NCBI RefSeq assembly: GCF_041260155.1
Contig: NC_091929.1
Coordinates: 31,217,962-31,281,961 of the forward strand
Origin: Ptychodera flava
Lineage: Eukaryota; Hemichordata; Enteropneusta; Ptychoderidae
Reading direction: 5' to 3'
Length of the DNA stretch: 64,000 bases
The position numbers were made by a program, and so were the translations under genes. Position 1 is the first letter of the stretch. Each line of letters opens with the position of its first letter. Below the pieces are notes generated by a model. That model searched no databases, was not told the origin of the DNA, and was given only the letters and a program-made list of their open reading frames with translations. Of this stretch, positions 20,903-55,924 are shown in pieces.

Positions 20903-21045
20903 TGTCTTCATTTAATTTATTAGACCAGAGATTTCTCTGACATAGCCTTTCAATGATATTCGAACGACATCTGGGTTGTTGTAATTTATCAACTCCTGTT
21001 GTTATGATTTGTTCCGACAGGATACTCAGTTTACTTATCCTTACT

Positions 21046-22694
21046 AAGAAAAATGTAACAACTTAGCCGGATATTGAACCACTCTTTTTGAGAGTGGGGA
21101 TTTAGCCGTGCGGTTCTCTCTGTGGCCTCTCCGCTAGGCGATTGATGCCGTATGTTGTGGGTTCGAAACCGATTGAAAACTAGCCGTATTTTCTACCCTG
21201 GGTTGGTAACTCTGCTGGTGGACAGAATTGTCCCAAAGGTTATCGTTCGCCCAGTTAAAGTGATGAAATTCGTTTCTTCGCTTCACTAAAGTGTGTATGT
21301 GCGATGTATGATAGTGAGCATGCGTGAATAGTGACTTCACGAACTCTACAACGTGTGGAGCGGTCTCAGTCAGAAAAATGTAACAACTTAGCCGGCTACT
21401 GAACCACTCTTTTTGAGAATGGAGATTTAGCCGAGCGGTTCTGTCTGTGGCCTCTCCGCTAGGCGACTGATGCCGTAGTTGTGGGTTCAACCCGATTGAA
21501 AACTAGCCATATTTCTACCCTGGGTTGGTAACTCTGCTGGTGGACAGAATTGTCCCCGAGGTTATCGTTCGCCCAGTTAAAGCGTGAAATTGTTTCTTTC
21601 GCTTCGCTAAAGTTTGTATGTGCGATGTGTGGTAGTGAGCATGTGTGAGTGAGTACTTCACGAACTCTACAACGTGTGGAGCGGTCTCAGTCAGAAAAAT
21701 GTAACAACTTAGCCGGCTATTGAACCACTCTTTTTGAGAGTGGGGATTTAGCCGTGCGGTTCTCTCTGTGGCCTCTCCGCAAGGCGACTGATGCCGTATG
21801 TTGTGGGTTCGAACCCGATTGAAAACTTGCCATATTTTCTATCCACACTGCATGAAACCCAATAATTCAGATGAATTCACATTTATGAGTTGCCTGTATT
21901 ATAGTATAATACACATGAATCACATGAATCCACATGAATACAGGCTTGCTGAATACAAAAAATGGATTCTTGACTGTATTCATCTGTATATGCACTCTTA
22001 GCTAAAATACAGGCAATAATCCATGTTAATACAGTAAGTATCAAAGGGTTTTTATGCAGTGCCAGGGTTGGTAACTCTGCTGGGGACAGAATTGTCCCCG
22101 AGGTTATCATTCGCCCAGTTACAGCGATATAATTGTTTCTTCGCTTCATAAAGTTTGTATGTGCGATGTATGATAGTGAGCATGCGTGCGTGAGTGCTTC
22201 AAGAACACTACAACGTGTGGAGCGGTCTCAGTCAGAAAAATGTAACAACTTAGCCGGCTATTGAACCACTCTTTTTGAGAGTGGGGATTTAGCCGTGCGG
22301 TTCTCTCTGTGGCCTCTCCGCTAGGCGACTGATGCCGTATGTTGTGGGTTCGAACCCGATTGAAAACTAGCCGTATTTTCTACCCTGGGTTGGTAACTCT
22401 GCTGGTGGACAGAATTGTCCCCGAGGTTATCGTTCGCCCAGTTAAAGCGATGAATTCGTTTCTTTGCTTCGATAAAGTTTGTATGTGCGATGTGTGATAG
22501 TGAGCATGCGTGAGTGAGTGCTTCACGAACTCTACAACGTGTGGAGCGGTCTCAGTCAGAAAAATGTAACAGCTTAGCCGGCTATTGAACCACTCTTTTT
22601 GAGAGTGGGGATTTAGCCGTGCGGTTCTCTCTGTGGCCTCTCCGCTAGGCGACTGATGCCGTATGTTGTGGGTTCGAACCCGATTGAAAACTAG
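21046..22694 (+). mobile_element. Tandem array of a tRNA-derived SINE, about 4.4 units of 324 bp
   Basis: Units start with AGAAAAATGTAACAACTTAG at about 21046, 21372, 21693, 22234 and 22559. Spacings are 326, 321, 541 (324 plus a 216-bp MITE) and 325. Each unit has a tRNA-like head with an A box (TTAGCCGAGCGGT, best in unit 2) and a perfect B box (GGGTTCGAACCC), about 50 bp apart as in class II (Leu/Ser) tRNAs. A tail of about 190 bp ends CGGTCTCAGTCAG. The last unit stops just after the tRNA-like head. Copy B is empty at the same place (around 47455). Confidence 0.85.
21846..22061. mobile_element. MITE, CACTGCAT family, copy 2 (inside SINE unit 3)
   Basis: 216 bp with inverted ends CACTGCATGAAACCC / CACTGCATAAAAACCC. 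It interrupts the unit between TTTTCTATCCA and CCAGGGTTGG, where other units read TTTTCTACCCTGGGTTGG. It therefore arrived after the array had formed, or in one unit that was not amplified further. Confidence 0.85.
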
Positions 22695-23332
22695 GTTTAT
22701 TATCCCCTATCACAATTTTACCCTCTGAACTATTTTATATTAACAGACAAATACATCATCTGTATATTGCTTGCTCAATTTATATCTTCTGTTCAGTGCA
22801 TATGTACAAACATGTTGAAACTCGCCACATTAAGTTCAGGGGTCAACTTTGTAAGCCATATCTGATTGAAAAGTATGTGTATTGATTTAGTGATGAAACA
22901 ATGATGTACTCCAAAAGGAACATTTTTGTGAGATCAACTCTACAGCGTGAGAGAAAGATCAGTCTTTGGCAAAATACAGATGTACACATTTTTTATGAAA
23001 CTATCCAAGCATTTGACACGAACTAAGTATTAACGCACAAACATACAACCAAATGGTAATAGAACCGTAACATAGTCTAGAGCAGATAAATTAGTGTGAC
23101 ATTTAACCACAGATTTGATAAAATCAATAAGATTGCGAAGATCAATAGGCGTTTTGAAGATATAGTGTTTTCCTCTGAGCGCGTATGTGTACACAGTGTA
23201 TTGACAGTGATTTATTGAAAAGTACTACAGCCAGCTTAAACATGTATTTACTGTCTTTAAAGCACACAATGCGTGCAAAGTGCTTCACTTCGTTATAGAG
23301 CTCTGAGCGAGAAGTATAAAAGAATGAGAAAA

Positions 23333-23906
23333 ATGCGTCTTACGAATTTAGAAATCTTATTGCTTATGTGCATCTGTTGGTTGACTATCAAGGCAGAACT
23401 TGACGGAGGCGATGTCTGCAGTGAGGATTTTTGCGCTCGTCCTGACCTTTGCGCATATGTGTTCACTTTTGGTAAAGGTGAAAATGGTATTTGTCCAGCC
23501 GTTAGCAATGCCATTCAGTCTGTCAACGACCTCGAAGACGACATCGACTTGCTTTACGAAAGGTTTCGAGAGTCGAACAGAGCGATAGATCTGGTGAAGC
23601 AGGGACAAGATAACATCCTAGGTTTGATCTACCAACAGAATGAAGTTATCGGTGAATTAGAGAGTAGAATGGAAAGGAACGATAGCATCGCCGAACGATA
23701 TTTTGATTTGCTGATGAATCAAATGGAAACGATAAAGGCAAATTTGACGAACCTGAATGCTCGAAGTGTTAATCTTAAGCAGATTATAAGGGAAGATCAA
23801 GTAGCCCACAGTACTCAACTCCAAATCCTAGACAGGAAGATCTCACAACTAGAAGCTAAAAATACTTTCTTTGAGGGGGAATTGACGAGACTTGGCTCAC
23901 TAATAG
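23333..23906 (+). CDS. Gene A exon 1 (signal peptide, Cys segment, coiled coil)
   Basis: 574 nt, ending CTAATAG|gtttgt in phase 1. The in-frame codons GGT TTG TAA beyond the donor would end the protein if it were unspliced. The start is set at 23333 because gene B starts at the equivalent codon and the two exons then have identical length; an ATG at 23324 adds only MRK. Past residue 45 the sequence is free of Cys and Pro-poor with regular hydrophobic spacing (LEDDIDLLYERF, IYQQNEVIGELESR, QLQILDRKISQLEAK), as in a coiled-coil stalk. Confidence 0.85.
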
Positions 23907-26900
23907 GTTTGTAAATTAATTTTTTATTGTATTTCCGCTATTCACGTAACTAAGCACAAACAATACATTTCTTTATGTTGCTTAAATGCCCTGTGCTTCC
24001 AAATGTACATAATTAATCTTTGGGTAAACGTTCTGCAACTTTTGTCAAACAGCAATTGTATGATTAAGGCACAGTTCTGATTATTAAAGCGAACGCACGA
24101 TGGCGCTGTCGTCTTGAAAAAAACACAGAAAATGAAACTACCTGTAATTGTGAAATGCCATATCTCCTGCTGCCACAGGTCAGGGGAATAAGAAATGGAG
24201 AGATGATCTCCGATGTGGACTGAAATTCCCACTTGCTGATGGTACTCCAGCCGAGTGTAATCCTGACAGTGACAAGCCATGTTGTTCGTCTATTGCTTGG
24301 TGTGGAAAGACCTGGGATCACTGTTCATGTGAAAACTGCATAGATTACCGCAGTAAGTGTTTATTTATTTATTTTTATTTATTTATTTATTTATTTTGCA
24401 CAAAATGATATATAAACACCACAAAATGAACAAAATTGTGAATGGATTACACAGAAAAGTCTAAAGACCTATTTCCACTGTGGTCCATATAGACAAAAGA
24501 CTAACAAAACAATGAAAAACAATACAAAGTAAGAAATCCGACAACAGGGAGTAAAACAAGCACTTCAAAAATATTAAATAATACTGACTGTAACCCTCTG
24601 AAAATCACATCAAAGATTAAATGAAATCTCTCCTGATACGAAAGACATAAGAATCTTGAAAATGTCATTTTAACTTTCTTTTAAAATTGTAACTGGAATC
24701 AATATTCCTTATACTACATGGAAGGCAATTCCATAACTGCGAAGCTGAGTACTGAAAACTTGTTTGAAATAATTTAGCTCCTCCTGGGATAAAAACTGAA
24801 TTATTGCCAGAACGTGTATTATAATTGTGTACATTTTGTCCGGTAATGAAATTTGATGCTTGGTAGGATGGAGCTTGACCCCTTATTATTTTATGCATGA
24901 GATTCAGTTTCAGATACGACACTCATTGCTCTACACGAAGCCACCCAAGTTTTTCAAAGTGAGGTGGCCCGATATTTTCCCTGGGGTGCATATCTAGAAC
25001 AAACCTAATTATTTTATTTTGTGTTGTTTGTAGTCTATTTTTACTGACAACTTTCAAACCTTGATACCAGTAGGCACAGGCATAATCAAAAAGACAATTA
25101 ATTACAGACTATTTCAAGCTTAGACTGTTCTTTTAAGAAATGATTCGAATTGAAAGAATTGACTCCGTTTTACCAAGATGTAAAGTAATTTGTTATCCAC
25201 TAACCATTCATTCAAACTTTGCAAATGTAAGCTTAGTTTGTTTTGTATTTTACCAATATCCTCGTCAGAGACCATCAGTGCTGAGTCGTCAGCATACAAA
25301 AGAAGTTTACAATTTACAGCAGAACACATGTCATTAACATATATTGAAAACAGAATCGGACCCAGTATCGATCCTTGAGGTACCCCACAATTAATGTGAT
25401 TAAATGATGACATATGATTATTTACGTTGACCACTTGCTGTCTGCCAGTCAGATAAGAACTGAACCAACAAACAGCTTCGTGATTCAGGCCCAACGCTTT
25501 AAGGTGAAGTACTACGAATTACGTCAAAATTAGGTTGAGGTGTCATTTTCTTGAAACTTTGCACGAATATTCTTGGAAGTTGTGCAAGTGCAAAAATGAA
25601 ATTAAAAATGGGGGTCACCACGCTCGTTTCCATGGAAACGGACGTTAAAATGGCGTCGTTAGAAATAAATAAAAATGATATAATTCACTTAAACTAAAGA
25701 AAGCAATTATAAAACGCTCAGCAAATGAGTGAATTTTAATAAATACCAAGAATTAAGATCCATATCTATCGAATGTATGGTTTTCATGATGTTTGTAAAG
25801 AAATTTGAACATAAGTATCGATTACAAAAAGACGATAACGAAATTATATCACTACATAATTTTCGGACTTTCTTCCTGTCGCTTTGAATGGTGTCATTTT
25901 GACCAAACTTGGCAAATAAAATCCTTACATAATACCATTTAGTTTACACTTTTAATAAAAGGGTGTCACCACGCTACTTTTTACAATATCTCCAGGTGAA
26001 TGGGTAATATGCGCCATGTCAATGGGAGAGAAATGTTAGTTTTGCGCTCATATTGAATAAAAACCAGCTTTCTAGGGGGTCAAAATATGACAAAGTTAAA
26101 GGTCACATGTATTTCTAAGAGACTGGGTCAAAAAATTAGGTAAAAGTTCAATTTCAACAATGACAGATGATGTTAAATACATGCGCTACAAAATAACCCA
26201 TTTGCGGCAGGCTGGAGTTAAATCTGCGCAGAAATGTTCTAAAGCGTGTGCGCGTCCGAATTCGTCGCCCTTTACCTTAAGCTTATCTAATAAAATCCCA
26301 TGATCCACGGTATCAAATGCCTTCTGAAGGTCGATAAGCACCACCCCTGTTCGTTTACCCTGGTCAATTTGGTGTTTGATATGATCAGTGATGTAAATCA
26401 AGCATGTATCAGTAGAGTATCCTGGTCTAAATCCTGATTGAAATTCATACAGTAAGTTGTTTTTCAATAGGCACTCTTCTAGCTGGTCATAAATTATTCT
26501 CTCCAGAACTTTAGAAACAATGCTTGTAATCGATACTGGCCGATAATTACCTTCAAAAGTTTTGTCATTCTTTTCGTAAACTGGGACAACTTTGGCATTT
26601 TTTAAATCATTCGGAAAAACTTGTTGATGAATTGATAAATTAATAACATGAGTTAGAGGAGCAGCAATTTGCTCAGCGCCATCTTTAATAATTTTGGCCT
26701 GAATATTGTCTAAACCTGTCGATTTAGTGCTTTCAAGAGAGGAAAGATGATTATAGACAACAGAATCACTGACAACGGACAGTTTGAAACCGTTTTCTAC
26801 AACTCCTTTGTCAGAGTAAAAATGTTTGACATGGTCTATGCCAAACTTACCTGACATAGGAGGTAGTTTGTCGACAAGTGAAGATGCTATTGTGCTGAAG

Positions 26901-29900
26901 AAGTGATTAAATCTTTGTGCAACTTTTGTTTTGTCAAAACAAACCTCATTGCCTATAAGCAAGCCAATATTTGTGAAAGTAGAACCAACTTTTTTAAGGG
27001 GAGCTCCCAAGTTTTTCAAGATTTTCCAAACCTCTTTTGAGTTTTGGTGAAATAGGAAGAGCATGGTAGGACCGCAAACAATGATTTCGCCTGTATTTTT
27101 TATGCAAATTGGAATATATTTAAGGTGATTATGGGTTGATCAGTGGTACTATTATGTTGACCATTCTTTAAACTGTTTCTATTTTGGGTTATCGACGAAC
27201 GTTTGCTAAAACCACACATTTGATATATCAGATTGTACGTCTGATCAGCAATTGGCAATGTCACAACCTTTAGCAGAAAGCTCACTACGGGTCTCAGTTG
27301 GGGTCATGTGGTTCGTATAGTCTACTTACAATCATGTGCATTGTCGATTATTATAATGCATTCTTCACTGAGGGAGGAACCAAACCCGAAACCTCTGTTG
27401 ATTTAATCTCCTGGCACCAAGTGTTTTATCTGCTGTTTTTAAGTACCCTAGCCTTACCTCCTTTTTGAGGGAGGTCTATCGAATCGGATACTAAGCTCAC
27501 TAATTGGTTTGTAATTTACTTTTTTTTATGACAGCATTACTAGAAATCATTAGTTGTTGAAATTCATCGGAAAATTTACACTGTTTATTTCAACAAACGT
27601 TAGCATTACACATCATTATGTTGCTGTAATTACCTTTGCTGCCAAGTCAGTGTAAACGTTCAGTAACTTTTAATCAACAACCATGGTAGTAAGGTAAAGT
27701 TCTGATTATTTAGGCGAACGCACGATGACGCTATCGTCTCGATAAAAACACAGAAAATGGAACTACCTGTAATTTTGAAATATTATATCTCCTGCTGCCA
27801 CAGGTCAGGGGAATAAGAAATGGAGAGATGATCTCCGATGTGGACTGAAATTCCCACTTGCTGATGGTACTCCAGCCGAGTGTAATCCTGACAGTGACAA
27901 GCCATGCTGTTCGTCTATTGCTTGGTGTGGAAATACCTGGGATCACTGTTCATGTGAAAACTGTATAGATTACCGCAGTAAGTGTTTGAGTTTTAGTCAA
28001 ATAGGAAGAGCATGGTAGGACCGCAAAAATGATTTCGGTTGTAAAATTTTACACAAATTGGAATATATTTAAGGTGATTATGGGTTCATCAGTGGTAATA
28101 TTACGTTGAACATTCTTTAAACTGTTTCTATTTTGGGTTATTGACGAACGTTCGCTAAAACCACAGATTTGATATATCAGATTGTAGGTCAGATCAGCAA
28201 TTGTCAATGTCACAACTTTTGGCAGAAAGCTCACTACGGGTCTCAGTTGGGGTCATTTAGCTGGTAGTCTACTTACAATCATGTGCATTGTCGATTATTA
28301 TAATGCATTCTTCAATGACGGAAGAGCCCAACCCGAAACCTGTACTGCTAAATCAGTGTAAACGTTCTGATTATTTAGGCGAACGAACGATGGCGCTGTC
28401 GTCTCTGATGAAAACACAGAATATGTATCTACCTGTACTTGTGAATGTTATATCTCCTGCTGCCACAGGTCAGGGGAATAAGAAATGGAGAGATGATCTC
28501 CGATGTGGACTGAAATTCCCACTTGCTGATGGTACTCCAGCCGAGTGTAATCCTGACAGTGACAAGCCATGCTGTTCGTCTATTGCTTGGTGTGGAAACA
28601 CCAGGGATCACTGTTCGTGTGAAAACTGTATAGATTACCGCAGTAAGTGTTTGAGTTTTAGTCATTTAGTCAAATAGGAAGAACATGCAAGACCGAAGCA
28701 CTGATTTCGTCTGTAAACATTTTACACAAATTGGAATACATTTAAGATGATTATGGGTTGATATGTGGTATTATCATATGCCCATGCCCTATTGACGTTC
28801 TCCGTAAAATATCAGTCGTGATATTTCAAGGTAAATGTCGAGATGTACACGATGAACGTCATCAGTTTTGGAGTTTTCCGGACTACATTAGCAGTTTTTT
28901 GGTAAACAACGTAAACAAACAAAATGGCTGCTGCTCCCCGCCTGCGAAGCGATGTCGCCGACGTAAAAACTGGAAGGGCTTCGAGGAAGACTGGTATTTT
29001 TGGTTGCCAAAGACGGAAATAACAAGTTGAGTCTTGAAATGTTTTCCCATAGTATGTTTTGGTCTAGTTCTAGCAAACATTCTGCCTTTCGCACGGCGCC
29101 GGCTCTGTGCACGGTCTACCCACGAACATGTAGTGAGTGCGTGGCGTGACAGCGATGTCGCACGCGCAACGACTGTTGAGATGGCAACTGTCAGGGTAAA
29201 CAAACAAAGTGGCGTCCCCTCTCCGCGTGAGCTCCGTGCCGTACAACAATCGAAATCAGGATAGATTCAAAGCTGAGCACAGTTTTTAATCGGTTACAAT
29301 TGTAATAGCATATGGCATTTTAAAAGGTTCCTCATGTATGACGATTTTTGTATCCCGGTGTCTTTCTTCTTTGGGTCATTGAGATATGGACGACTTGCAG
29401 CGATGTCGCGCGTGATGTTGACTTCGTCGTATACTTTATGAATGAAACCTGTTCACATAAACAGTCTGATATTTATACGCAAGGCGAAATACAGTAAAGC
29501 CTCAAAATTTAAGCTTTTTCGTTCTTTTAGTAAAATTATGGGCATTGGTGTATGATAAATCGTTTATTACCCAATATCGCCTGTTCCTGTGTCGTATCAG
29601 CATGAGTATAATTTGAGCTGCGTCAGACACGAGACGAAGTCGAGTGTTTGACGCAGCACAAATGACACAGGAACAGGCGATATTGGGTATTATATCATAC
29701 CAGTATATTGATGGTGCAAATGCAGCGATCTGATTGGTCGAGACGGCAAAAGAACCGTGGTATATTGGCGATATACCACGGTTAGTATACGCGCAAGCTC
29801 TCAGCTTGAGCAAAAATCCGTTTTTGACGTTTCTCGCCAAAATTTCAATACACTGTTATGATATAATAGCAATAAATCACACCCAGAGACGGTATAACAC

Positions 29901-31500
29901 TCATTTTGACCAGTTCACTTCATATATGCACTCGCTGTCGCTCGTGTATGTATGTCGTGAACTGGTCAAAATCTCGTGGTATACCGTCGCTGGGTGTGCT
30001 TTATTACTTAAATAACCTCTAACTATTATGTTGACCAAACTTTAATCTTTTCTATTTTGGGTTATTGACAAACGTTCGCTAAATCCTTAAATTCTTTTAT
30101 CAAATGTATAAATCTTGTCACCCTTTAAATATGTCACAAACTTTGGCAGAAAGTTCACTAAGCGTCTCATTTGTGTCATGTAGTTGGTATAGTATACTGA
30201 AAATTGTGTGTAATGTTGATAATGAAAATGCATTCTTCACTGAGTGAAGAGCCCGACCCGAAACCTCTGTTGATTTAATCTCCTGGTTCTAACTGTTTTT
30301 ATGTGCTGTTTTTTTAAGTACCGTAGCTTTATCTCCTTTTTGAGGGCGGTCTTTCGATACTTAGCTATCTTATAAGTTTGTAATTTACTTTTTTATGACA
30401 GCATTTCTAGAAATCATTAGTTGAAATTCATCGGAAAATTTACACTGTTCATTTCAACAAACGTTAGCATTACACATCATTATGTTGCTGTAATTACCTG
30501 TGCTGTCAAGTCAGTGTAAACGTTCAGTAACTTTTAAACAACAACCATGGTAGTAAGGTAAAGTTCTGATTATTTAGGCGAACGCACGATGACGCTATCG
30601 TCTTGATAAAAACACAGAAAATGAAACTACCTGTAATTGTGAAATGTATATCTCCTGCTGCCACAGGTCAGGGGAATAAGAAATGGAGAGATGATCTCCG
30701 ATGTGGACTGAAATTCCCACTTGCTGATGGTACTCCAGCCGAGTGTAATCCTGACAGTGACAAGCCATGCTGTTCGTCTATTGCTTGGTGTGGAAACACC
30801 AGGGATCACTGTTCGTGTGAAAACTGTATAGATTACCGCAGTAAGTGTTTGAGTTTTAGTCAAATATGATAGGGCCGCAAACAATGATTTAGTTTGTAAT
30901 ATTTTACACAAATTGGAATATATTTAAGGTGATTAAGGGTTGATATGTGGTACTATTATGTTGACAATACTTTAAACTGTTTCTAGTTTGGGTTATTGAC
31001 GAACGTTTGCTAAAACCACAAATTTGATTTATCAGATTGTAGGTCTGATCAGAAATTGTCAATGTCACAACCTTTGGCAGAAAGCTCACTACGGGTCTCA
31101 GTTGGGGTCATTTAGTTGGTATAGTCTACTTACAATCATGTGCATTGTCGATTATTATAATGCATTCTTCGATAACGAAAAAGCCCAAACCGAAACCAGC
31201 ACTACCAAGTCAGTGTAAACGTTCTGATTATTTAGGCGAACGCACGATGGCGCTGTCGTCTCTGATAAAAACACAGAACATGGAACTACCTGTACTTGTG
31301 AAATATTATATCTCCTGCTGCCACAGGTCAGGGGAATACGAAATGGAGAGACGATCTTCGATGTGGACTGAAATTCCGACTTGCTGATGGTACTCCAGCC
31401 GAGTGTAATCCTGACAGTGACAAGCCATGCTGTTCGTCTATTGCTTGGTGTGGAAACACCAGGGATCACTGTTCATGTGAAAACTGTATAGATTATCGCA
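23333..31500 (+). CDS. Gene A: secreted coiled-coil protein with hevein-like modules
   Basis: Coding exons 23333-23906, 24179-24352, 27804-27977, 28469-28642, 30667-30840 and 31327-31500. Exon 1 gives a signal peptide (MRLTNLEILLLMCICWLTIKA), a four-Cys segment (DVCSEDFCARPDLCAYVF) and a long charged helix (residues about 45-190). Each later exon is 174 nt, phase 1-1, and encodes one 58-residue module with eight cysteines. In each, CC-x5-C-x6-C reproduces the core of type 1 chitin-binding (hevein) domains, ending CIDYR. No terminal exon is visible. If the last donor is not used, translation stops nine codons later, giving about 490 residues. Likely secreted and oligomeric. Carbohydrate binding is inferred only from the cysteine frame: the first aromatic of the hevein site is Ile here, while its Ser and second Trp are kept. 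A sixth exon is deleted (32237-32278). Confidence 0.8.
24179..24352 (+). CDS. Gene A module exon 1
   Basis: Acceptor ctgccacag, donor gtaagt, 174 nt, phase 1-1. Module W-R-D-D-L-R-C-G to C-I-D-Y-R. It differs from its siblings at CGKTWDHC (others CGNT). A LINE has inserted seven bases past its donor; gtaagtgtt is intact. Confidence 0.85.
24361..27035 (-). mobile_element. CR1-like LINE, 5'-truncated, in gene A intron 2
   Basis: Minus-strand reverse transcriptase: NYRPVSITSIVSKVLERI, FQSGFRPGYSTDTCLI, motif A VVLIDLQKAFDTVDHGIL (Asp intact), CGVPQGSILGPILFSIYVND, motif C LLLYADDSALM, then the C-terminal HNYNTRSG and FQTSFQYSASQLWNCLP typical of CR1-like elements. It has no endonuclease, so the 5' end is truncated near 27035. 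The 3' end is an (AATA)n-like tail at 24361-24400. It is interrupted by a 774-bp transposon at 25503-26276. Comparison with sister introns gives clean edges inside gtgtttgagttttggt. Confidence 0.88.
25503..26276. mobile_element. TTAA-flanked DNA transposon (774 bp) nested in the LINE
   Basis: Bounded by TTAA at 25499-25502 and 26277-26280. Imperfect inverted ends are GGTGAAGTACTACGAATT and GGTAAAGGGCGACGAATT. Taking it out with one TTAA rejoins the LINE frame exactly (…LLDKLK-ALGLNHEA…), so the ends are certain. It has no transposase reading frame. Target choice suggests piggyBac-type mobilisation. Its terminal sequence differs from the AGGTATAC MITE, so it is a second TTAA family. Confidence 0.92.
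27804..27977 (+). CDS. Gene A module exon 2
   Basis: 174 nt, phase 1-1, acceptor tgccacag, donor gtaagt. Module sequence is consensus for gene A, with NTWDHC. It forms a pair with 28469 joined by a short (491-bp) intron. Confidence 0.87.
28469..28642 (+). CDS. Gene A module exon 3
   Basis: 174 nt, phase 1-1. Identical to module exon 4 (30667) over almost its whole length, with NTRDHC. The following intron carries a 1.25-kb insertion. Confidence 0.87.
29551..29699. repeat. Palindromic MITE-like hairpin
   Basis: Arms CCAATATCGCCTGTTCCTGT and its reverse complement are perfect over about 26 bp, ending in TATGATA/TATCATA. An inner stem GCTGCGTCA/TGACGCAGC encloses GACGAAGTCGAG. The loop motif resembles that of the palindrome at 62918-63069. 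Confidence 0.85.
29753..29783. repeat. Short inverted repeat
   Basis: AACCGTGGTATA and TATACCACGGTT separated by seven bases, between two larger palindromes. Confidence 0.8.
29871..30005. repeat. Palindromic MITE-like hairpin
   Basis: Arms AATAAATCACACCCAG / CTGGGTGTGCTTTATT, then GACGGTATA / TATACCGTC, and TTTTGACCAGTTCAC / GTGAACTGGTCAAAA. The loop is CTCGCTGTCGCTCG. It is about 135 bp and non-coding. Confidence 0.85.
30667..30840 (+). CDS. Gene A module exon 4
   Basis: 174 nt, phase 1-1, acceptor tgccacag, donor gtaagt. Consensus gene A module with NTRDHC. With the next exon it repeats the two-exon pair of 27804 and 28469. Confidence 0.87.
31327..31500 (+). CDS. Gene A module exon 5 (last intact)
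   Basis: 174 nt, phase 1 start. Carries Pro to Arg in the FPLADG motif (FRLADG) and Lys to Thr before the first Trp. Read-through of the donor gives SKCLSFGQI and a TAA, a possible natural end of the protein because the next exon is deleted. Confidence 0.82.
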
Positions 31501-31989: not shown

Positions 31990-32560
31990 AGTAAAGAAAC
32001 GGATTATCAAACATTTACCAACACTTGAAATTCAAAATGGCTGCCATCCCTAATTTAACTGTATGGGGCGAACTAAATTTTACCTTTTTACAATAATAAC
32101 CCAGTGAAAATTTTCTTTAAATTTCTTCACTAGCATTAGGAGAAATGCCCGCAATTGGTAGAATAAAAGGTATCATGCAAGTTTGAGAGAGCAAATATCT
32201 GTCCCCGAGGTGCAAGCATTCGACCGTACTTCTTAGATAGTAACCGAAGTTGGAGGGTTGATATGTGGATCAGCCTTTTTTGAACCATTCTCTCACCAAA
32301 TCAAGGATGAAAATCAGGGAACAGTCTAAAGTGTGGTACTTGAAAAACCAATTACCTAATTTTATCGAATCTGATATAAAATTCAAAATGGCCGTCATTC
32401 CCTGTTAACTCTATCGAGAAAATTGTGATTTTCGAAAATCTGTTATATAAAATCTTTCGCACTCTAAGAATTTTAAAATGAGCCCGTAAAAGCGGTATAT
32501 CAGAAAAGAATTGTAAAACATCGCATGTTCGAATATCTCTCATGAGGCGCATTTAATCTT
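31990..32560. repeat. Two members of the AAATTCAAAATGG repeat family flanking the deleted exon
   Basis: Cores at about 32025 (AAATTCAAAATGGCTGCCAT) and 32377 (AAATTCAAAATGGCCGTCAT). The equivalent pair in copy B is at about 53885 and 54483, on either side of the intact exon 54102-54272. Confidence 0.65.
32237..32278 (+). pseudogene. Deleted sixth module exon of gene A
   Basis: Acceptor-like TTCTTAG is followed by AGTAACCGAAGTTGGAGG and GTGGATCAGCC, the beginning of gene B's last module exon (54102 on). A 5-base deletion shifts the frame. After CAGCCTTT the sequence jumps to TTGAACCATTCTC, which in copy B lies about 240 bp later (54390). All but the first quarter of the exon, with its donor, is gone. 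Confidence 0.8.
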
Positions 32561-40069: not shown

Positions 40070-40180
40070 TGGCAAATAATCCACAAGGTCGAATTTATTG
40101 TTCAGCTGAAAAATGACTCGTTCATTGAGAAGTCAGGCTGATATCTATGATCTAATGAATCGATAGCCTGTGAATATTAA

Positions 40181-40367
40181 AGGTATACTGTCACCTGTTC
40201 CAATTTTGCCACAGTTACCATGGTGAGAGAAAATAAAACCAGTCACAGATTTAAAGCGGGTGGCCGCTTTTTAAAAACAGCACCCCAAACAAGGGCATTT
40301 TGAATACCAAGGAACGCCCATTTGACCATATATGCGCATATTTAAGATTACAGGTGACTGTATACCT
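40181..40367 (+). mobile_element. TTAA MITE (AGGTATAC family), copy 2
   Basis: 187 bp with TTAA on both sides (40177-40180, 40368-40371) and inverted ends AGGTATACTGTCACCTGT / AGGTATACAGTCACCTGT. The paralogous position in copy B (54923-54926) is a single TTAA with the same flanks, so it is a clean empty site. Confidence 0.95.
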
Positions 40368-43390: not shown

Positions 43391-46300
43391 CGCTTACTCC
43401 AAATCCTCCACAGTCCATTCTTTGATAACTCTGATAATGATAAAACACTCTTCACAAGCGGGTTACTTGAGAGATGGAGTCTGCTCAGAAAACTAAATTA
43501 TTTTTTCCGAAGGATTTCATCAAAAGTTAAAATCGAAAGACTGACAAACATTGCACTGTTATTCTGAATAAAAGAATGTTTAAAACCAGACAACTTACAA
43601 AACACATGGGAGTAAGCTCGTCTAACTGCATTAAACGTACATAAAGAAAACGTACTCGACAAATAAGAACAATAAGGAATATCACAAAAGACAGAAAATA
43701 AGTGACATTTTACAGAAAGAGACGCGAATTTAAAATCACGAATTATAGCATTGCCACGAACATGAAATTGCCGAGCCTGAGCCTGAATGTCCTCATTATT
43801 CCTAAGGTCACAAGTGATTAAGTGACCAAGGTATTTATAAACACTAACATAATCAAGCATTTTACCATTAAGATAAATTGGAACTTGTCTAAGCTTACGA
43901 ATACTTGGTTGAATTAGCATACAAACTGTCTTTTGCTCATTGAAAAATATTGAATGATTGTTACCATAATGACCACATATATCAACAAGCATCTGCTGCC
44001 ATAGGCTCCAGTAGATATGATAACTAAGTCGTCAGCATAAATCAAATGATTCACCTTATAGTCACCAATAAGGCATCCATAGGGAATTGTGGAGAGATTC
44101 TTACTGATATCATCCAAATAGACGGTGAAAAAGAAAGGTGACGTAATGCCACCCTGCTTTACCCCATTCTTAGAATGAAAAGTTTCAAACAGTAACCCAT
44201 TCCATCTGACAACAAAGTCTTGATACCTATACATGTATGACAAAATCTTAATGAGATAAGGCTTAACATCCCTTTGCAATAGTTCAACATACAGAATATT
44301 GTGATGAACATAGTCAAATGCTTTGGATGCATTCATAAAAGTGATGAAAACAGGAGTATTACAACGTCTATAGTAATTCAAAATTTCTTTCAAAACAAAT
44401 ACTGACATATCAGAACCATGGTCTGGTTTAAATCCAAATTGGTGATCTGTGGTTGTTAAACATTCCATACAGCGATTTAACGAAACCCTTTGGAACAGTT
44501 TGGATATTGTTGTTGCAACAGCAACATGACGATAGTTAGATTTGTCACAAATGTTGCCACCTGGATTTTTTGGAATAGGAACTAAAACAGTGGTCATCAA
44601 TTCTCTAGGAACAGTTCTATGAATCAAAATGACCGAAAAACAAAGGGACAAAAGAACATTGACTCTATATGGAGCATACTTCAAATGCTCAGGTGATATA
44701 CCGTCATACCTGATGATGCACCTGTCTTGAGGTTCTTCACTAATTCACAAATTTCTTCGTGGTGCACAGTCATGTCATTACAGTCTTTAATGTTCGAAAA
44801 GACAGGTGTCGAATCGTTACCAGTTTTGGTCAAAAGAGTTTTATAATGGCATTTCCACATATTTACTACTTCAGCGTCACCAGCATGACCATCAACAGAT
44901 GATGGAGCTATTACTCTACCTGTACGTTTATTGATCTCTTTCCAGTACTCCTTGGAGTTACTCTTTCATTTTTCAGCCATGGCATTCGCACGCATTTCTT
45001 TTTCTGCCCTCTTACACTGTGCAAACTGCCTTTTAAACTGTGCCCTAGACCTTCGCATAAATTCAAAGAAAGGGCCAAATTTAGGAGAACCGTTGTCCTT
45101 CCAGATCAAAAAATCACTACGTGCTTTGTCATAGTGTTCTTTCACAACTGTATTCCAACCTGGTATTGTATGCCTATTTGACTTTGTGGCTTTTGGAAGA
45201 GTCATATCTGCGGCAGTCAACAACGCTGAAACAATTTCACTATAAAATGTATCAATCAGATGAGAATGAATACAACAGTCTGTGTCAGTACAAGCCAATG
45301 AACTTCAGATAAAAGTCTGTCACAAAACACTTCAAAGTTCACAAGTTGGCAAGATGACACTTTGTTCCAGCAAGGCGTACGTGCTTCAGTTTGTGACGAA
45401 CTACTGAGCCTAGGTAGCAAAGCGGTCTTCAAAGTGAACATTAGAGGAAAGTGATCAGAAGAAATGATATCATATTTTACCTTAACAGAATCAACGATGT
45501 TATCAGATGAAGATGAGGAAAATGATATGATCAAGCCAACTTCGAGCAAAACATGAATCACTTAGATGTGTAAAAGTCTCAGGATGCAGGCGTTCAATGT
45601 CTGAAAAGATGAAGTTATTATCTTGTACAAAATTATCTCAAAGTACAAATTCATGCTGATTTTTTTTTCGGTTCTGCATTAAAATCACCTGAGATAAGAC
45701 AATAGTAAGTACCTAATTCATTAATTGTAACTTGTAACAAGCCTAAAATCCGCTGATATTCATCACAGTCAGAATTCGCAGTTGGTAGATACACGTTCAA
45801 AATTACGACATCAGGCTTTTCTAACATTTGAATGCGAATACCGATAACACGACTTTCACCGTCAAAAACGATAGGTGAGATACCGTTGAGATTTTTACGC
45901 CAAAGAATACCAACGCCCACATAGGGTCTACCCGTGAGAACACCATGCGAGCTATCAAAGGCACTCACATCTATTGAAGTAAACTCATTATGCAACGAAC
46001 TAAGAACTGATAACTTTTCCTTGTCAAGCCAATGTTCTTGAACTAATAAAATATCACAAAAATTAAGCAAAGTGTCAAGGGAACCAAGAGAGGAATTTAG
46101 ACCTCTTACATTGTAGCTAGCAAGGTTAATGACATCCATTATCTGTTACTGATATTAACTACTTGTGGAGAACTTTTCTTCGACTTTGCAATCAGCTCAG
46201 ACTTCATCAAATAATACGGTTTCACACAAATTCCAGTAGGCCACAATTCAGGACAGAGGACCATATCAATACAGCTGTCATTTACGTCAATTCTGAACGA

Positions 46301-48080: not shown

Positions 48081-48654
48081 ATGCGTCGTACGAAGTTAAA
48101 AATCTTATTGCTTATGTGCATCTGTTGGTTGACTATCAAGGCAGAACTTGACGGAGGCGATGTCTGCAGTGAGGATTTTTGCGCTCGTCCTGACCTTTGC
48201 GCTTATGTGTTCACTTTTGGTAAAGGTGAAAATGGTGTCTGTCCCGCCGTTAGCAATGCCATTCAGTCTGTCAACGACATCGAAGACGACATCGACTTGC
48301 TTTATGAAAGGTTTCGAGAGTCGAACAGAGCGATAGATCTAGTGAAGCAGGGACAAGATAACATCCTAAGCTTGATCTACCAACAGAATGAAGTTATCGG
48401 TGAATTAGAGAGTAGAGTTGATATGAACGATGGCGGCACCGGTGGATATTTAGATTCGCTGATGGATCAAATAGAAACGATAAAGGAGAATTTGACTGAC
48501 CTGTATGCTCGAAGTGTCAGTGTTCAGCAGATTATAAGGGAAGATCGGGAAGCCCACAATACTCAACTTCAAGTTCTAGAGAGGAAGATATCACAACTAG
48601 AAGCTAAAAATACTTTCTTTGAGGGCGAATTGACGAGACTTGCCTCTCTAATAG
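48081..48654 (+). CDS. Gene B exon 1 (signal peptide, Cys segment, coiled coil)
   Basis: 574 nt, ends CTAATAG|gtttgt. About 90% alike to gene A exon 1 by eye. Differences cluster in the middle of the stalk (VDMNDGGTGGYLDSLMDQ against MERNDSIAERYFDLLMNQ). The signal peptide, Cys segment and C-terminal heptads (KISQLEAKNTFFEGELTRL) are conserved, suggesting selection on both ends. Confidence 0.85.
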
Positions 48655-51600
48655 GTTTGTAAATTACTTTTTAGCTCACGTGTGTAAACACATGGGCTAT
48701 TTTCATAGTGATGTCTGTCTGCCTGTCTGTCTGTCCATGTGTGTGTGTGTTAGTGTGTGTGTCTGTCTGTCTGTCTGTCTGTCTGTTTACACGATAACTC
48801 AAAAACGCCTGAACAGATTCAGGTCAGATTTAGTACAAAGGTACCATGTTCTACTTGCAAGAACTACTTAGATTTTGGTTAGTGTAGCTTGCATATTAAT
48901 GAAGTTATGCAATATTGTTTTTTTCCATACAATGGTTTCCCTATGGAGACGGTAATGACAGTGTAGACATATATCAAGAAATACTGCACAAAATTTCATG
49001 AAACTTTTCAAAGATGACAATCTAAGAACATTATGATGATACTGTGAGTGTCATGTCAATTTTCTTCTCATTTGCATATTTAATGAACTTTTGGTATTAG
49101 TGAGATATCTCTGAAATTCCTGCACCAAACTTGATGATACTTGCAACAAATATTGATCTGATATATATCTAATTATACTTACAAGCATTAGGCAGTGTAA
49201 ATTTAATAAATAGCTCATTTGCATATTTTATGAAGGTTTGTAATTAGTCATATAACTCCGATATAACTTCCTCAAATGTGATGAAATCTGCTGCAGATAC
49301 TGATCCGACTGATATCTAACAGTAGTGTAAAGCATTTAGTAGTGTGAAATTAATTAAGGGTTCATTTGCATATTTAATGAACTTCATACTCAGGTATATA
49401 ACTCTGAAATTACGGCACCCAAGTCAGTGAAATTGGGTACAAATATTGCTTTGATAAATATCTAATTGTAATGAGAAGCATTTGGCAGTGTCAAGTTAAT
49501 ACATAGGTCATTTGCATATTTTATGAAGTTAAGTAATAAGTGATATAACTCCAAAATAACTGCACCAAATATGATGAAATATGCTGCAGATACTGATCCG
49601 ACAGATATCTAATTGTGGTGTAGAGCATTTAGTAGTGTGAAGTTAATTAAGGGTTCATTTGCATATTTAATGAACTTTGAAATTAGTGACATTACTCCAA
49701 AATTAAAGCATTAAATTTGATGAAGCTTGCTACATATGTTAATCTGATAAATATCCAATTGTACTGAGAAGCATTGAGCAGTGTCAAGTTAATAATTAGC
49801 TCATTTGCATATTTCATGAAGTCTTATAATTAGTCTAATAACTCCAAAATAACTGCATCAAATGTGATGAACACTGCTGCACATACTGATACGACAGATA
49901 TGTAACTGTGTTGTAAAGCATTTAGTAGTATAAAGTTAATTAAGGGTTCATTTGCATATTTAATAAACTTTGTAATTAGGTATATAACTCTGAAATTTCG
50001 GCACTAAAATTCGGTGAAACTTGCCACAGATATTGATTTGATAAATATTTAATTGTGCTATGAATCATTGAACAGTAGGGTAGTTAATGTAGGGTTTATT
50101 TGCGTATTTAATGAACTTTGTAATAAGTGACATTACTCGAAAACTACAGCATTAAATTAAATAAAGCGTGCTACAAATGTTGATCTGATGGATATTTAAT
50201 TGTCCAATAAAGCATTGAGCAGTGTCAACTTAATTGACACCTCATTTCCAGATTAAATAAAGTTTTGTAATAGTGATTAAACTCTGAGAGTACTGTGCGA
50301 AGATTAAAAAACCTCCTACATATAGTGATAACATATATCTCATTGTTCTGTGAAGCGTACTACTATTAATGAACTTGTTGTAAAACACGTGAGCATATTC
50401 AGTTCATATCTGGTTATACTATGGCCTGGTAATGATTAGTTTTTGAAATAACGTCAACAATTTACTCCATTCACTTAACAACAAAGCATAGGCATTTATA
50501 TTGCTGAAATGACCTGTGCTACCAACTATAGGTACCTGTTTAACCTCTGTCTTAACCCTCTTTAACACTTTATCATTAGCCATCGTCTGAACGCAAAGTT
50601 TAGATTATCTTAGGCAAAAACATGATGGAGTTATTGTCTTGATAAATACTCAAAAAATGGCCCTACCTGTAATTGTGAAATGTTATATCTCCTGCAGCTG
50701 CAGATCAAGAAAACGGAAAATGGAGAACTGACCTCCGATGTGGATCGAGTTTTCCCCTTGCTGATGGTACTCCAGCGGAGTGTAATCCTGACAGTGACTA
50801 CCCATGCTGTTCATCTATTGGTTGGTGTGGGAATACCAGGGATCACTGTTCGTGTGGCAACTGTATAGATTACCGCAGTAAGTGTTTGAGTTTTGGTCAA
50901 ACAGGAAGAATATGGTAGGATCACGAACACTGACTTCGTCTGTAGTATTTTACACAAATTTGAATATGTTTAAGGTCATTAATGGTTGATATGTGGTTCT
51001 ATTATGTTGACCATACATAAAACTGTTTCTATTTTGGGTTATTGACAAACGTTCGCCAAAACCTTGAATTCGATTATCAGATTATAGAACGTCTTATCAC
51101 CCTTTATCAATGTCACAACCTTTTGTTGAAAGTTCACTATGGATCTCAGTTGGAGTCATTTAGTTGGTGTGGTCTGATGTCAATCATGTTTATAGTCAAA
51201 ATTAAAGTATCGTTCTAACTGACAAAGAGCCGCAAAACCAGAAACCTCTGTTATTTTACTCTCCCGACACGGTGTGATTTTATTCGTTGTTTTCCCGGTA
51301 CCGCAGTTTTATCTCCTTCTTTGAAGGCGATCTTTCGCGACTAAGCTCTCTAATAAGTTTGCAATTTACTCTTTTATAGCAGCAGAGCGAGAAGATATTA
51401 GTTGTTGAAATACATCAGTCAATTTACGCCATTCATTTCAACAAACGTAAGAATTACACATCGTTATGATGCTGTAATTACTTGTATTGCCAACTCAGTG
51501 TTATCGTTCTGTAACTTCCATTGTATGAAGGCAAAGTTCTGATCATTTAGGCGAGAGCGTGATTGCGCTATTGTCTTGATACACACACACAAAATGAGCC

Positions 51601-54272
51601 TTCCTGTAGCTGTGGAATGTACAATCTTCTTCAGCCACAGGTCAGGAAAATAGAAAATGGAGAGATGACCTCCGATGTGGATCGAGTTTTCCACTTGCTG
51701 ATGGTACTCCAGCGGAGTGTAATCCTGATGGTGAATACCCATGCTGTTCATCTATCGGTTGGTGTGGGAATACCTGGGATCACTGTTCGTGTGGCAACTG
51801 TATAGATTACCGCAGTGAGTTTTTCAGTTTGGTCACATAGGAAGAACATGGTAGGACCACAGACGCTGATTTTGTGTGTAGTATTTTACACTAGTTGGAA
51901 TATGTTTAAGCTCATCAATTGTTAATATGTGGTTCTATTATATTGGCCATACTTAAAACTGTTTCTATTTTGGATGATTGACAAACGTTCGCCAAAACCT
52001 TGAATTCGATTATCAGATTATAGAACGTCTTATCACCCTTTATCAATGTCACAACCTTTTGTTGAAAGTTCATGATCACTACGGGTCTCAGTCGGGGTCT
52101 TTAGTTGCTTTACTCTACTCACAATCATGTCTGTTGTCGATAATTATAATGCATTCTTCAGTGACTAAAGAGCCAAACTCGAAACCTCTTGATTTAATCT
52201 TCTGGCGCCAAGTGTTTTTATCCGCTATTTTTTCGGTACCGTAGTTTTATCTCATTCTTTTAAAGCTATCTTTCGAGACTAAGCTTTCCGATAGGTTGGT
52301 AATTTACTTTTTAATGCAAACATAGCGAGAAATATTTAGTGGTTGAATTTCGTCTGATAATTTACGCTGTTCATTTCACAAACTAACGTAAGCATTTCAC
52401 GTCTTTATGTTGCTGCAATTATCTTTACTGCCAACCTTCAGTGTAAACGTTCTGTAACATTTAACCAAAAGCCACTGTATAAATGCAAAGTTCTCGCAAT
52501 TTCGGCGAAAGCATGGTGACGCTATTGTTTTGATAAATACACACAAAATGGACCTACCTGTAATTGTGAAATGTTATACCTCCTGCAGCTGCGGGACACG
52601 AAAATGGAAAATGGAGAACTGACCTCCGATGTGGATCGACCTTTCCCCTTGCTGATGGTACTCCAGCGGAGTGTAATCCTGATGGTGAATACCCATGCTG
52701 TTCTTCTATTGGTTGGTGTGGGAATACCAGGGATCACTGTTCGTGTGACAACTGTATAGATTACCGCAGTAAGTGTTTGAGGTTTGGTCAAACGGGAAGA
52801 ACATGGTAGGACCACGAACACTGACTTCGTCTGAAGTATTTCACACTAATTTGTATATGTTTAAGGTCATTAAGGGTTGATATGTGGTCCTATTATGTTT
52901 ACCTTACTAAGTTTAAAACTGTTTCTATTTTAGGTTATTGACAAACGTTTGCCAAAACCTTGAATTCGATTATCAGATTATAGAACGCCTTATCATCCTT
53001 TATCAATGTCACAACCTTTTGTAGAAAGTTCACTACGGGTCTCAGTTGGGGTCATTTGGTTTAAATAGGCTACTCACAATCATGTGTATTGTCGATAATT
53101 AAAATGCATTCACCAGTGACGGAAGAGCAAAACCCAAAACCTCTGTTGCATTATTCTTCTGGCGCCAAGTGTTTTTATCTACTGTTTTTTCGGTACCGGG
53201 GTTGTACCTCCTTCTTTGAGAGCGATCTTTTGAGACTAAGCTTCCTAATGGGTTGGCAATTTACTTTTTTATGGCAACATAGCTAGAAATCTTTAGTGGT
53301 TGAATTTCGTCGGATAATTTACGCTGTTCATTTCACAAACTAACGTAAGAATTACACGTCTTTATGTTGCTGCAATTATCTTTACTACCAACTCAGTGTA
53401 AACGTTCTGTAACATTTAACTTAAAGCCATTATGAATGCAAAGCTCTCGTGACGCTATTGTCTTGATAATACACACAAAATGCACATACCTGTAATTGTG
53501 AAATGTTATATCTCCTGCAGTTGCGGGTCAAGAAAATGGAAAATGGAGAGCTGACCTCCGATGTGGATCGAGTTTTCCCCTCGCTGATGGTACTCCAGCG
53601 GAGTGTAATCCTGGCAGTGAATACCCATGCTGTTCTTCTATTGGTTGGTGTGGAAACACCTGGGATCACTGTTCGTGTGACAACTGTAAAGATTACCGCA
53701 GTAAGTGTTTGAGGTTTGGTTAAATATGAAGAAATGGAACATGATTGGACTGCAAACTCAGATTTCTTCAAATTTGTAAAGATTCTCCAGGCGACCTTTC
53801 ATGGACTCTGAACGTTTTCCTGTTTCCTTTTGAAGTCATTACCATAGTCAGGGTCGCCGTAGTAAAGAAACAATATTTGCCAACACTTGAGATTCAATAT
53901 GGTTGCCATCGCTAAGGTAACTGCTTTGGGAGAACTAAATTTAAGCTTTTCACAATAATAACCAAGAAAAAATTTTTTCTCGGCTAGCTTTAAGCAAAAT
54001 GCCAACAAAAGGTAGAACAAAAAGGTATCGTGCAAGTTTAAGAGTCCAAATAACTCTCCCGACGTGCACACATTCTACCGTACTTCTTTTCAATTCTATA
54101 GAGAGTAACCAAAAGTGGAGAGACGATTTCCGATGTGGATCAGCCTTTCCTCTTGCCAACGGTAGTCCAGCGGAATGTGACCCTAATGGTGAATATCCGT
54201 GCTGCTCACCTTACGACTGGTGCGGCAACACCGGTGATCATTGTTCGTGTGCATCCTGTGTTGATTACCGCA
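48081..54272 (+). CDS. Gene B: secreted coiled-coil protein with hevein-like modules
   Basis: Tandem paralogue of gene A. Coding exons 48081-48654, 50704-50877, 51641-51814, 52589-52768, 53521-53700 and 54102-54272, all phase 1 junctions. Exon 1 has the same length as gene A's and the same parts: signal peptide (MRRTKLKILLLMCICWLTIKA), DVCSEDFC segment, helical stalk. Four similar modules (CGS(S/T)FPLADG … CCSSIGWCGNT … CIDYR) precede a divergent fifth with CCSPYDWCGNT. Read-through of the last donor gives SEFSI and a TAA (54286-54288), about 489 residues; AATAAA follows at 54823. Whether further exons exist beyond the repeats downstream is unknown. Likely a secreted multivalent binding protein; the ligand is not established. 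Confidence 0.8.
48673..50395. mobile_element. Element with inverted ends and internal 147-bp tandem repeat (gene B intron 1)
   Basis: Begins AGCTCACGTGTGTAAACACA and ends GTAAAACACGTGAGC, so GCTCACGTGT is inverted at the ends. It starts 17 bp past the exon 1 donor and is absent from gene A. A TGTC/TGTG-rich stretch (48715-48785) is followed by nine repeats marked by TTTGCAT at 49071, 49218, 49365, 49511, 49658, 49804, 49951, 50099 and 50245. Alternate units share the flank AAGGGTTCATTTGC or AGCTCATTTGC/GGTCATTTGC. It has no coding capacity. Confidence 0.8.
50704..50877 (+). CDS. Gene B module exon 1
   Basis: 174 nt, phase 1-1; acceptor ctgcagctgcag, donor gtaagt. Module starts QENGKWRTDLRCG and has NTRDHCSCGNC. 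The acceptor sits six bases after another CAG, which becomes important in exons 52589 and 53521. Confidence 0.85.
51641..51814 (+). CDS. Gene B module exon 2
   Basis: 174 nt, phase 1-1; acceptor cagccacag (gene A-like), donor gtgagt. Module QENRKWRDDLRCG, NPDGEYPCC, NTWDHCSCGNC. Confidence 0.87.
52589..52768 (+). CDS. Gene B module exon 3 (shifted acceptor)
   Basis: The usual acceptor AG reads GG here (ctgcgg|ga). The CAG six bases upstream (52586-52588) is in frame and would give a 180-nt exon beginning A-G-H-E-N-G-K-W-R. Module is otherwise intact: CGSTFPLADG, NPDGEYPCC, NTRDHCSCDNC. Confidence 0.8.
53521..53700 (+). CDS. Gene B module exon 4 (shifted acceptor)
   Basis: As in 52589, the normal acceptor is lost (ttgcgg|gt) and the upstream ctcctgcag is used in frame, giving 180 nt. 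Module has NPGSEYPCC, NTWDHCSCDNC and K for I in CKDYR. Confidence 0.8.
54102..54272 (+). CDS. Gene B module exon 5 (divergent, last)
   Basis: 171 nt; acceptor ttctatag, donor gtgagt. Module SNQKWRDDFRCGSAFPLANG, ECDPNGEYPCC, SPYDWCGNTGDHC, CVDYR. It alone has an aromatic (Tyr) where hevein has its first ligand-stacking Trp. Its intronic flanks differ from those of the other modules and match the deleted exon of gene A at 32237, so it is an old, distinct last exon of the family. Confidence 0.85.
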
Positions 54273-54288
54273 GTGAGTTTTCAATTTA

Positions 54289-54800: not shown

Positions 54801-54822
54801 ACTTATTTAGCCAATAAAGCCA

Positions 54823-54828
54823 CAAGGT
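54823..54828 (+). promoter_or_regulatory. Possible poly(A) signal of gene B
   Basis: AATAAA 535 bases after the read-through TAA at 54286. The equivalent spot in copy A is CAAATAATCC, without the signal. Assignment depends on gene B ending in its last visible module exon. Confidence 0.3.
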
Positions 54829-55689
54829 CTAATTTATTGTCCAGCTGAAAATTTACTTGTTCATACAGTAGACAAACTGATATATTTGGTCTGGCACTCA
54901 CGAATAGATAGCACATAAATATTTAAGGCATGTTGTTATGTCACCAAAATATCCTGAAGACAACAACGACTGACCAAAAGATGTGAATTGGATCACTGTA
55001 CTTTGCTTGCAGTTGTAAGTAAATTGTTAAGGTTTTCCACTTGTAACCCTGAAGTTAACTCAGGTTTTTTTTCAAATTTGTCTATAACAGCTAGAAAGTA
55101 AACCTGGAGAACTCTTGGGACCAGATGTACATGTTCCTTCAACCTTAACCAAACATCATTCTCAAGAATTCAGGGAGATGGAGAAGTACAACAAACACTA
55201 CCTTTTTCACAAATACAATATTACAATGGACCATACAATGGTGTGCACAGGAATTTACATTTTTCCTCTATAGAGGAAGAATGATCCGGATATACAAATT
55301 TTCAGAATGTTAACTTTTTGAAATTAATTTCGGCCAAGGCGTCAGAGGAGCTTACTGGGAACACCGAAGAACACATTATTGTTTTCACTGACTTTTCAAT
55401 ATAAAGATTGAAAATTAATTGTCTTTTAAGCAGAGTTAAAAGAAGGAGTATGATAAATTTTCGAGTACCTATACACCTCAGGTAATTTTCTTAAGTAATT
55501 TACACAATAAATCCCATTGTGACGTTCATTCTTGATAATGTAGAAGGAAAATGGGGCAAGCTTTTTGCTAACAAAACACAACCAAATTAAGCAAACATTC
55601 ATGCTTTATGTGACATTTTGCATAAAGCTCCACTACCTTACCTTTGATGTTTTCCATCGTTTTTTAATGATATTTACTGTTTCTTGTCT

Positions 55690-55900
55690 ATTACGATAAT
55701 AGTGGATGTATGTATGATGTATGTATGTATGATAAGTATGTATGTATGTATGTATGTATGTATGTATGTATGTATGTATGTATGTATGTATGTATGTATG
55801 TATGTATGTATGTATGTATGTATGTATGTATGTACGTACGTACGTATGCATGCATGCATGTATGCATGCATGTATGTATGTATGTATGTATGTATGTATG
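55690..55900. repeat. (TATG)n microsatellite
   Basis: About 50 tetranucleotide units with ATGC/ACGT variants in the last third. Partner of 41257-41364. Reading frames (MYVC, YIHT) are repeat artefacts. Confidence 0.95.
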
Positions 55901-55924
55901 TATGTGCGAGTGTCCATGAATTTT

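Follow-up and report, generated by a model that had tools for sequence, protein, structure and literature searches.

A tandem pair of genes predicted to encode a secreted coiled-coil protein with five hevein-type modules per chain

Among the matches listed in the open-licence literature, hevein-type domains of animals are described, as far as the available parts of the reports go, for amphioxus (PMC4610682) and nematodes (PMC5297725) alone. In amphioxus, the domain of BbtPGRP3 has a hevein-like fold with disulphides 27-50, 41-56, 49-63 and 65-68, it binds chitin beads, and its presence gives about five-fold more activity on Lys-type peptidoglycan (PMC4610682). The accessible sections of the same report attribute this domain to a transfer from plants, on the ground that it is not known from any other chordate. 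They also mention more than 250 hypothetical chitin-binding domains in amphioxus, mostly without an assigned function, so that many unpublished architectures of a similar kind could exist. In the available part of a further paper, tachycitin of the horseshoe crab is likened to hevein (PMC2866484).

The locus reported here lies in a window of 64 kb (the whole stretch of DNA that was analysed), in which two paralogous genes follow each other head to tail on the + strand, with coding parts at 23324-31500 (gene 1) and 48081-54272 (gene 2). Each gene has one exon for the N-terminal region and the stalk, followed by five phase 1 exons that contain a single eight-cysteine module each. An earlier note on this DNA had proposed such a tandem pair, and its anatomy was borne out by a motif scan and by the exon phases. 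The start at position 20903 that had been given for the pair turned out to be the onset of duplicated flanking DNA; coding begins at 23324.

In gene 1, exon 1 (23324..23906) codes for a signal-peptide-like start, a four-cysteine segment (C-x4-C-x5-C-x13-C) and a two-helix coiled-coil stalk. Modules 1 to 5 of this gene are found at 24179..24352, 27804..27977, 28469..28642, 30667..30840 and 31327..31500; the coding part of the fourth is identical to that of the third, and the fifth is the final intact module. A reverse-transcriptase piece on the - strand is located inside the intron preceding module 2. In gene 2, exon 1 (48081..48654) again codes for a signal-peptide-like start, a four-cysteine segment and a stalk; in both genes the hydrophobic start was assigned by eye. 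The modules of gene 2 occupy 50704..50877, 51641..51814, 52589..52768, 53521..53700 and 54102..54272, the last one being a divergent terminal module. The window also holds a split transporter gene and LINEs, which, together with the nearest relative of the modules, make an animal source probable. Its 64 kb yielded neither a tRNA nor an Rfam match at gathering score.

Upon six-frame translation of the window, the motif CC-x(4-6)-C-x(4-8)-C was observed ten times, five times in each gene (24.2-31.5 kb and 50.7-54.3 kb, respectively); all occurrences are on the + strand and belong to a single type of module. The cysteine spacing, C-x13-C-x7-CC-x5-C-x6-C-x-C-x2-C, is the same in the ten modules, all of which have an open reading frame.

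Gene 2 module 3 was compared with all PDB chains, and the best matches were those of the amphioxus BbtPGRP3 domain (4zxm and 4z8i, with E values of 2.2e-14 and 6e-14), whereas plant hevein-type lectins scored far weaker (lectin-C, E 0.0025). A profile built from nine modules matched the BbtPGRP3 domain with an E value of 3.3e-15, and gene 2 module 5, the terminal one, did so with 3.8e-13. These alignments span the whole module without a gap and keep the eight cysteines in register. By homology to the BbtPGRP3 pairs, four disulphides linking cysteines 1-4, 2-5, 3-6 and 7-8 are predicted. As the AlphaFold model of the module was unusable (mean pLDDT 45, pTM 0.24) and was discarded, the fold is assigned from this homology. 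The hevein-type identity that had been suggested for the modules was thus upheld, their nearest solved relative being a hevein-like domain with experimentally observed chitin binding; an unrelated fold, named beforehand as the result that would speak against it, was not found in the comparison with the PDB chains.

When three of the ten modules were scanned with Pfam, Chitin_bind_1 (PF00187) was the sole family listed, with 19.4, 21.7 and 20.5 bits, all below the curated cut-off of 27.8 bits; judged by that cut-off, the modules are relatives of the family and not members. For the same three modules, NCBIfam returned no match. Relatives elsewhere were looked for with two peptide patterns per collection, which gave 25 pattern matches in viral contigs and nine in prokaryote genomes, none of which was confirmed.

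For the stalk, the gene 2 sequence was modelled with AlphaFold from an alignment of 2 sequences. The mean pLDDT was 71.6 (55-64 for the other models), and two helices were predicted, at residues 55-115 and 121-190, separated by a helix break at 116-120. Block means of pLDDT ranged from 75 to 93 for residues 61-180 and fell to 60 for residues 181-190, while residues 1-13 and 15-53 were below 50. Segments picked after inspection of this model were then examined for a hydrophobic a/d pattern by a shuffle test. For residues 55-115 the pattern was matched by none of 5000 shuffles in each gene, and for residues 121-156 by 12 and 5 of 5000 in the two genes. For residues 157-191 the shuffles reaching the pattern were 24 and 11 per 5000, and for the segment 121-191 they were 19 and 4. 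When ten 56-residue stretches of the gene 2 stalk were scanned for periodicity, a period of 3.5 was preferred in seven, and a period of 3.6 in the three stretches starting at residues 81-101. The coiled-coil reading of the stalk, already put forward from the letters, is thus supported by a heptad pattern beyond composition, with a weaker signal for the stretches starting at 81-101. The helix break in the model would also allow an antiparallel hairpin as well as a parallel oligomer.

Eight and 14 Pfam families were listed for the two stalks, none of them at cut-off (best, CENP-F_leu_zip, 4.9e-05), and these were taken as coiled-coil likeness and rejected as family assignments. The NCBIfam matches of both stalks were likewise set aside as far under the cut-off (best, EzrA, 5.3e-05, 21.8 bits against 556), and a PDB sequence search with the gene 2 stalk yielded eight matches with a best E value of 0.13.

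Comparison of exon 1 between the two genes gave an overall dN/dS of 0.51 with a dS of 0.15, and this value covers unequal parts. Codons 23-112 had a dN of 0.014 and a dS of 0.115, and codons 168-191 a dN of 0.018 and a dS of 0.201. The cysteine segment, the first helix and the end of the stalk are constrained; from the helix break onward constraint is loose, which affects a large part of the stalk. Positive selection at codons 113-167 was considered and rejected, because a dN of 0.221 against a dS of 0.239 indicates loose constraint only.

In our view the two genes encode, with a probability of roughly 0.55, an oligomeric and multivalent secreted lectin-like protein for GlcNAc polymers, of which the secretion, the oligomerisation, the glycan binding and the role in defence or matrix are all predicted properties. 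The order of signal peptide, cysteine segment, coiled coil and module string corresponds to that of a multivalent binder that forms oligomers. The signal peptide would lead to export from the cell, and the four-cysteine segment together with the coiled coil would join several chains. The five hevein-like modules of each chain would then bind polymers of N-acetylglucosamine (chitin or the glycan strands of peptidoglycan), each of them weakly and all of them jointly in a firm manner. In the available part of one study, tandem modules of the same kind are argued to increase the overall affinity (PMC3569864). The terminal module of gene 2 would be the best binder, and the repeat modules would contribute avidity or have a different preference. 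In favour of this reading are the homology of the whole module to the BbtPGRP3 domain, the retained Ser, second Trp and His, the coding constraint and the heptads of residues 55-115; against it stand the Ile at the Trp53 place, the unusable module model, the Pfam scores of the three modules scanned, the loosely constrained portion of the stalk, the 3.6 period of some stretches and the helix break that would permit a hairpin. This reading and its rivals partly overlap and are not fully exclusive.

Among these rivals, a structural matrix protein is a possible, if less probable, candidate. Here, the coiled coils would form fibres or nodes and the modules would attach them to chitin made by the animal itself, in cuticle, tube, the organic layer of a shell or gut lining. 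The anatomy suits such a protein equally well, and the near-identity of modules within a gene suits a scaffold. The discussion of chitin and chitin-binding proteins in the Lingula shell matrix, in the accessible part of that work, was also counted in its favour (PMC4595640). Two weak points have to be set against it. The nearest solved relative of the modules is an immune amidase; in addition, inspection of the exons by eye revealed no low-complexity, strongly acidic or collagen-like stretch such as occurs in matrix proteins.

The residues of the presumed binding face bear on the lectin-like reading itself. The equivalents of Ser51, Trp55 and His62 of BbtPGRP3 are present in the ten modules. 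At the place of Trp53, an Ile is found in nine of them and a Tyr solely in the terminal module of gene 2, so that the face reads Ser-Ile-Trp-His in the repeat modules and Ser-Tyr-Trp-His in the terminal one. The same place is occupied by Trp or Tyr in the four plant domains aligned (three of lectin-C and one of morintide). According to the available text on BbtPGRP3, the W53A/W55A double mutant does not bind chitin (PMC4610682); this mutant changed both Trp jointly, and Ile at the first of the two places may mean weaker binding. Thus, of the suggestion that the product binds chitin or microbial sugars, the hevein-type relation stands, and chitin binding is less sure, nine of the ten modules being devoid of the first Trp.

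It is conceivable, though doubtful, that the repeat modules are no longer chitin binders but spacers, or binders of a protein or of another glycan, and that the terminal module of gene 2 is the sole binder, a view that partly overlaps with that of a lectin-like protein. The replacement of the first aromatic residue by Ile in all modules but the terminal one agrees with this, as does the fact that gene 1 has no terminal module, yet keeps its five repeat modules open. However, Ser, the second Trp and His are retained throughout, which argues against this view.

The history of the arrays was followed by comparing the modules within and between genes. In the 20 between-gene pairs of repeat modules, differences at codon positions 1, 2 and 3 amounted to 85, 139 and 311, respectively, and across the nine repeat modules the variable columns were 6, 10 and 24. 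A dN/dS of 0.16-0.36 was obtained for every one of the 20 pairs; the modules are under coding constraint. The dS values were 0-0.16 among gene 1 modules and 0.12-0.28 among the repeat modules of gene 2, against 0.35-0.69 between genes. A tree of nine 300-nt units was split by gene with 100% bootstrap, the branching within genes being poorly supported (35-76), and an exon-only tree of the ten modules gave the same split at 99 and grouped the terminal module with gene 2 (support 43). The lower dS within than between genes and the split by gene indicate that each array underwent its own expansion or homogenisation. Between the genes, exon 1 has diverged less (dS 0.15) than the repeat modules have, which may point to gene conversion in the 5' part.

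The terminal module of gene 2 shows a dS above 1.4, or saturated, with respect to the other nine modules. The alignment of the two genes enters this module, breaks off at 32278 in gene 1 and 54148 in gene 2, and resumes at 54385. About 236 nt, including the rest of the terminal module and its donor, are therefore missing in gene 1, where the first part alone remains as a relic on the + strand at 32235..32277. To judge from this alignment with gene 2, gene 1 formerly had a terminal module that has since been lost, with a stub kept. One might picture an animal equivalent of the multi-module hevein lectins of plants, with phase 1 modules shuffled as exons onto a coiled coil, many weak modules per oligomer and one strong terminal module; the product of the gene without it would enter mixed oligomers as a partner of lower affinity or with a regulatory role. 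We consider this scheme rather improbable.

An in-frame stop is the sixth codon past the last gene 2 donor, so that intron retention at this place would likewise terminate the protein. Five candidate terminal exons were selected by acceptor, phase and pyrimidine tract. Furthermore, ten ORFs (nine on the + strand, one on the - strand) were chosen from the 94 listed downstream of gene 2, and none gave a Pfam match above cut-off, the weak matches being TF_Otx (E 0.2) and DUF7875 (E 0.049). No amidase domain was seen in these ten ORFs or in the LINE-like ORFs downstream of gene 1, the window ending at 64000. Part of the likeness between the 3' flanks of gene 1 and gene 2 is due to a dispersed repeat, the segment 54370-54549 also matching 6561-6743 (78%), and this likeness was not taken as proof of an exon.

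The assembly of the chain depends on the exon boundaries. Exon 1 ends in both genes at an identical phase 1 donor (AG/GTTTGT), and a phase 1 GT donor follows each of the ten modules (GTAAGT in eight, GTGAGT in two). When the common acceptor place is taken, the module exon codes for 56-57 residues; this place is an AG in eight modules, and in gene 2 modules 3 and 4, where it is GG, an AG of the same phase lies 6 nt upstream and was used for their coordinates. Further in-phase AGs occur near some gene 2 modules (alternative acceptors at 50698 and 50710 for module 1, 51635 for module 2 and 53533 for module 4), and the starts of a few module exons may shift by some codons. Since the phase 1 donors are shared, exon 1 and every module are mutually compatible in frame, and from phase and splice signals we infer splicing of stalk to module and of module to module. 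A stop two codons past the stalk donor in both genes (GGT TTG TAA) would suit a stalk exon that is a separate gene, with the modules on another transcript; as a stalk is followed by a module array with matching phase 1 in both copies, this is very unlikely. Still less credible is a polyprotein precursor cleaved into single hevein-like antimicrobial peptides. It is favoured by a dibasic pair ahead of the conserved Trp, Lys-Lys in four of the five modules of gene 1 and Arg-Lys in one of the five of gene 2; against it, half of the modules (one of gene 1, four of gene 2) have no dibasic pair there, and the heptad-patterned stalk would have no evident role.

Turning back to the lectin-like protein and its novelty, no description of the order of stalk and module array was found in the open-licence literature, among the matches listed, which is weak evidence that the order is new. 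Of the candidate undescribed system of the earlier note, the domain order can be retained within that scope, but the kind of module cannot, the BbtPGRP3 type being known. Ten single-exon phase 1 modules in a separately expanded gene pair suggest a module that travels in animals as one exon, and the locus offers a second architecture for testing glycan recognition. If the source species is not an amphioxus, the case for a transfer into the lineage of amphioxus becomes weaker.

The plant hevein-type lectins (hevein, UDA, WGA and pokeweed lectin-C; PF00187 / CBM18) have the CC-x5-C-x6-C core in common with the modules described here. Several modules per chain are also found in plants, three of them in lectin-C and several in WGA. 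With respect to the cysteine spacing of hevein, the modules of this locus differ by a longer first loop and a C-x-C-x2-C end, and they differ from the plant proteins by the coiled-coil stalk and, in the three modules scanned, by Pfam scores that fall short of the cut-off. For C. elegans, the available part of the nematode report describes proteins with two or three hevein-like domains, a likeness in the multi-module character; unlike here, and going by description, those domains are tied to GH18 chitinase domains (PMC5297725). Mollusc fibrinogen-related and C1q-domain proteins are presented, in the accessible part of their description, with a signal peptide, an N-terminal coiled coil thought to permit oligomerisation and a C-terminal binding domain (PMC8878817); as their binding domains are different, the resemblance is one of layout alone.

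The closest likeness is to the domain of BbtPGRP1-3 (PDB 4Z8I, 4ZXM; available text of PMC4610682), with a W-R-x-D start, eight cysteines aligned without gaps, a C-x-D-Y end and, at the binding face, Ser, the second Trp and His. In the amphioxus proteins, as that text presents them, one module stands ahead of an amidase domain, whereas in the present genes a coiled coil is followed by five modules, and the scanned ORFs showed no amidase. The first Trp of the BbtPGRP3 site is the residue replaced here. What is new with respect to these systems is the Ile at this place in nine modules, the Tyr in the terminal module of gene 2 and the loss of the terminal module in gene 1; its presence in one gene and loss from the other constitute a natural contrast for the study of binding.

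Comparison of gene 1 with gene 2, the two head-to-tail paralogues, showed that dN was about equal to dS over stalk codons 113-167 of exon 1 (48081-48653 in gene 2), with constrained flanks on both sides of this stretch. The predicted break of the stalk helix falls within it; at the break, gene 2 encodes NDGGTGG and gene 1 encodes NDSIAER.

In the hevein-like modules, the residue directly N-terminal of Asp-His-Cys is Trp in modules 1 and 2 of gene 1 and in modules 2 and 4 of gene 2, Arg in modules 3, 4 and 5 of gene 1 and modules 1 and 3 of gene 2, and Gly in the divergent terminal module of gene 2. The pattern looks as if two variants had been retained in gene 1 and gene 2 alike.

Tandem arrays with units of 321 nt and 324 nt lie a short way upstream of gene 1 (21047-22694), and the segment separating them (21845-22061) matches 6090-6309 at 89%. 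In gene 2, intron 1 holds a tandem array of 147/293 nt units (49067-50284); its counterpart in gene 1 measures only 272 nt. A dispersed repeat of about 190 nt is present in three copies, of which the one at 10283-10478 is 91% alike to that at 40175-40372 and 89% to that at 56199-56386.

By Pfam scan of ORFs, LINE-type reverse transcriptase pieces were detected on the minus strand between the two genes (42378-46145) and within the intron preceding module 2 of gene 1 (26189-27139). One ORF of these pieces additionally matched ALKBH8_N, and another matched an endonuclease family.

Upstream of gene 1, on the plus strand, five ORFs at 12964-16974 matched Nucleos_tra2_N, Gate and Nucleos_tra2_C in the Pfam scan, marking the exons of a sodium-dependent nucleoside transporter of the SLC28/CNT type.
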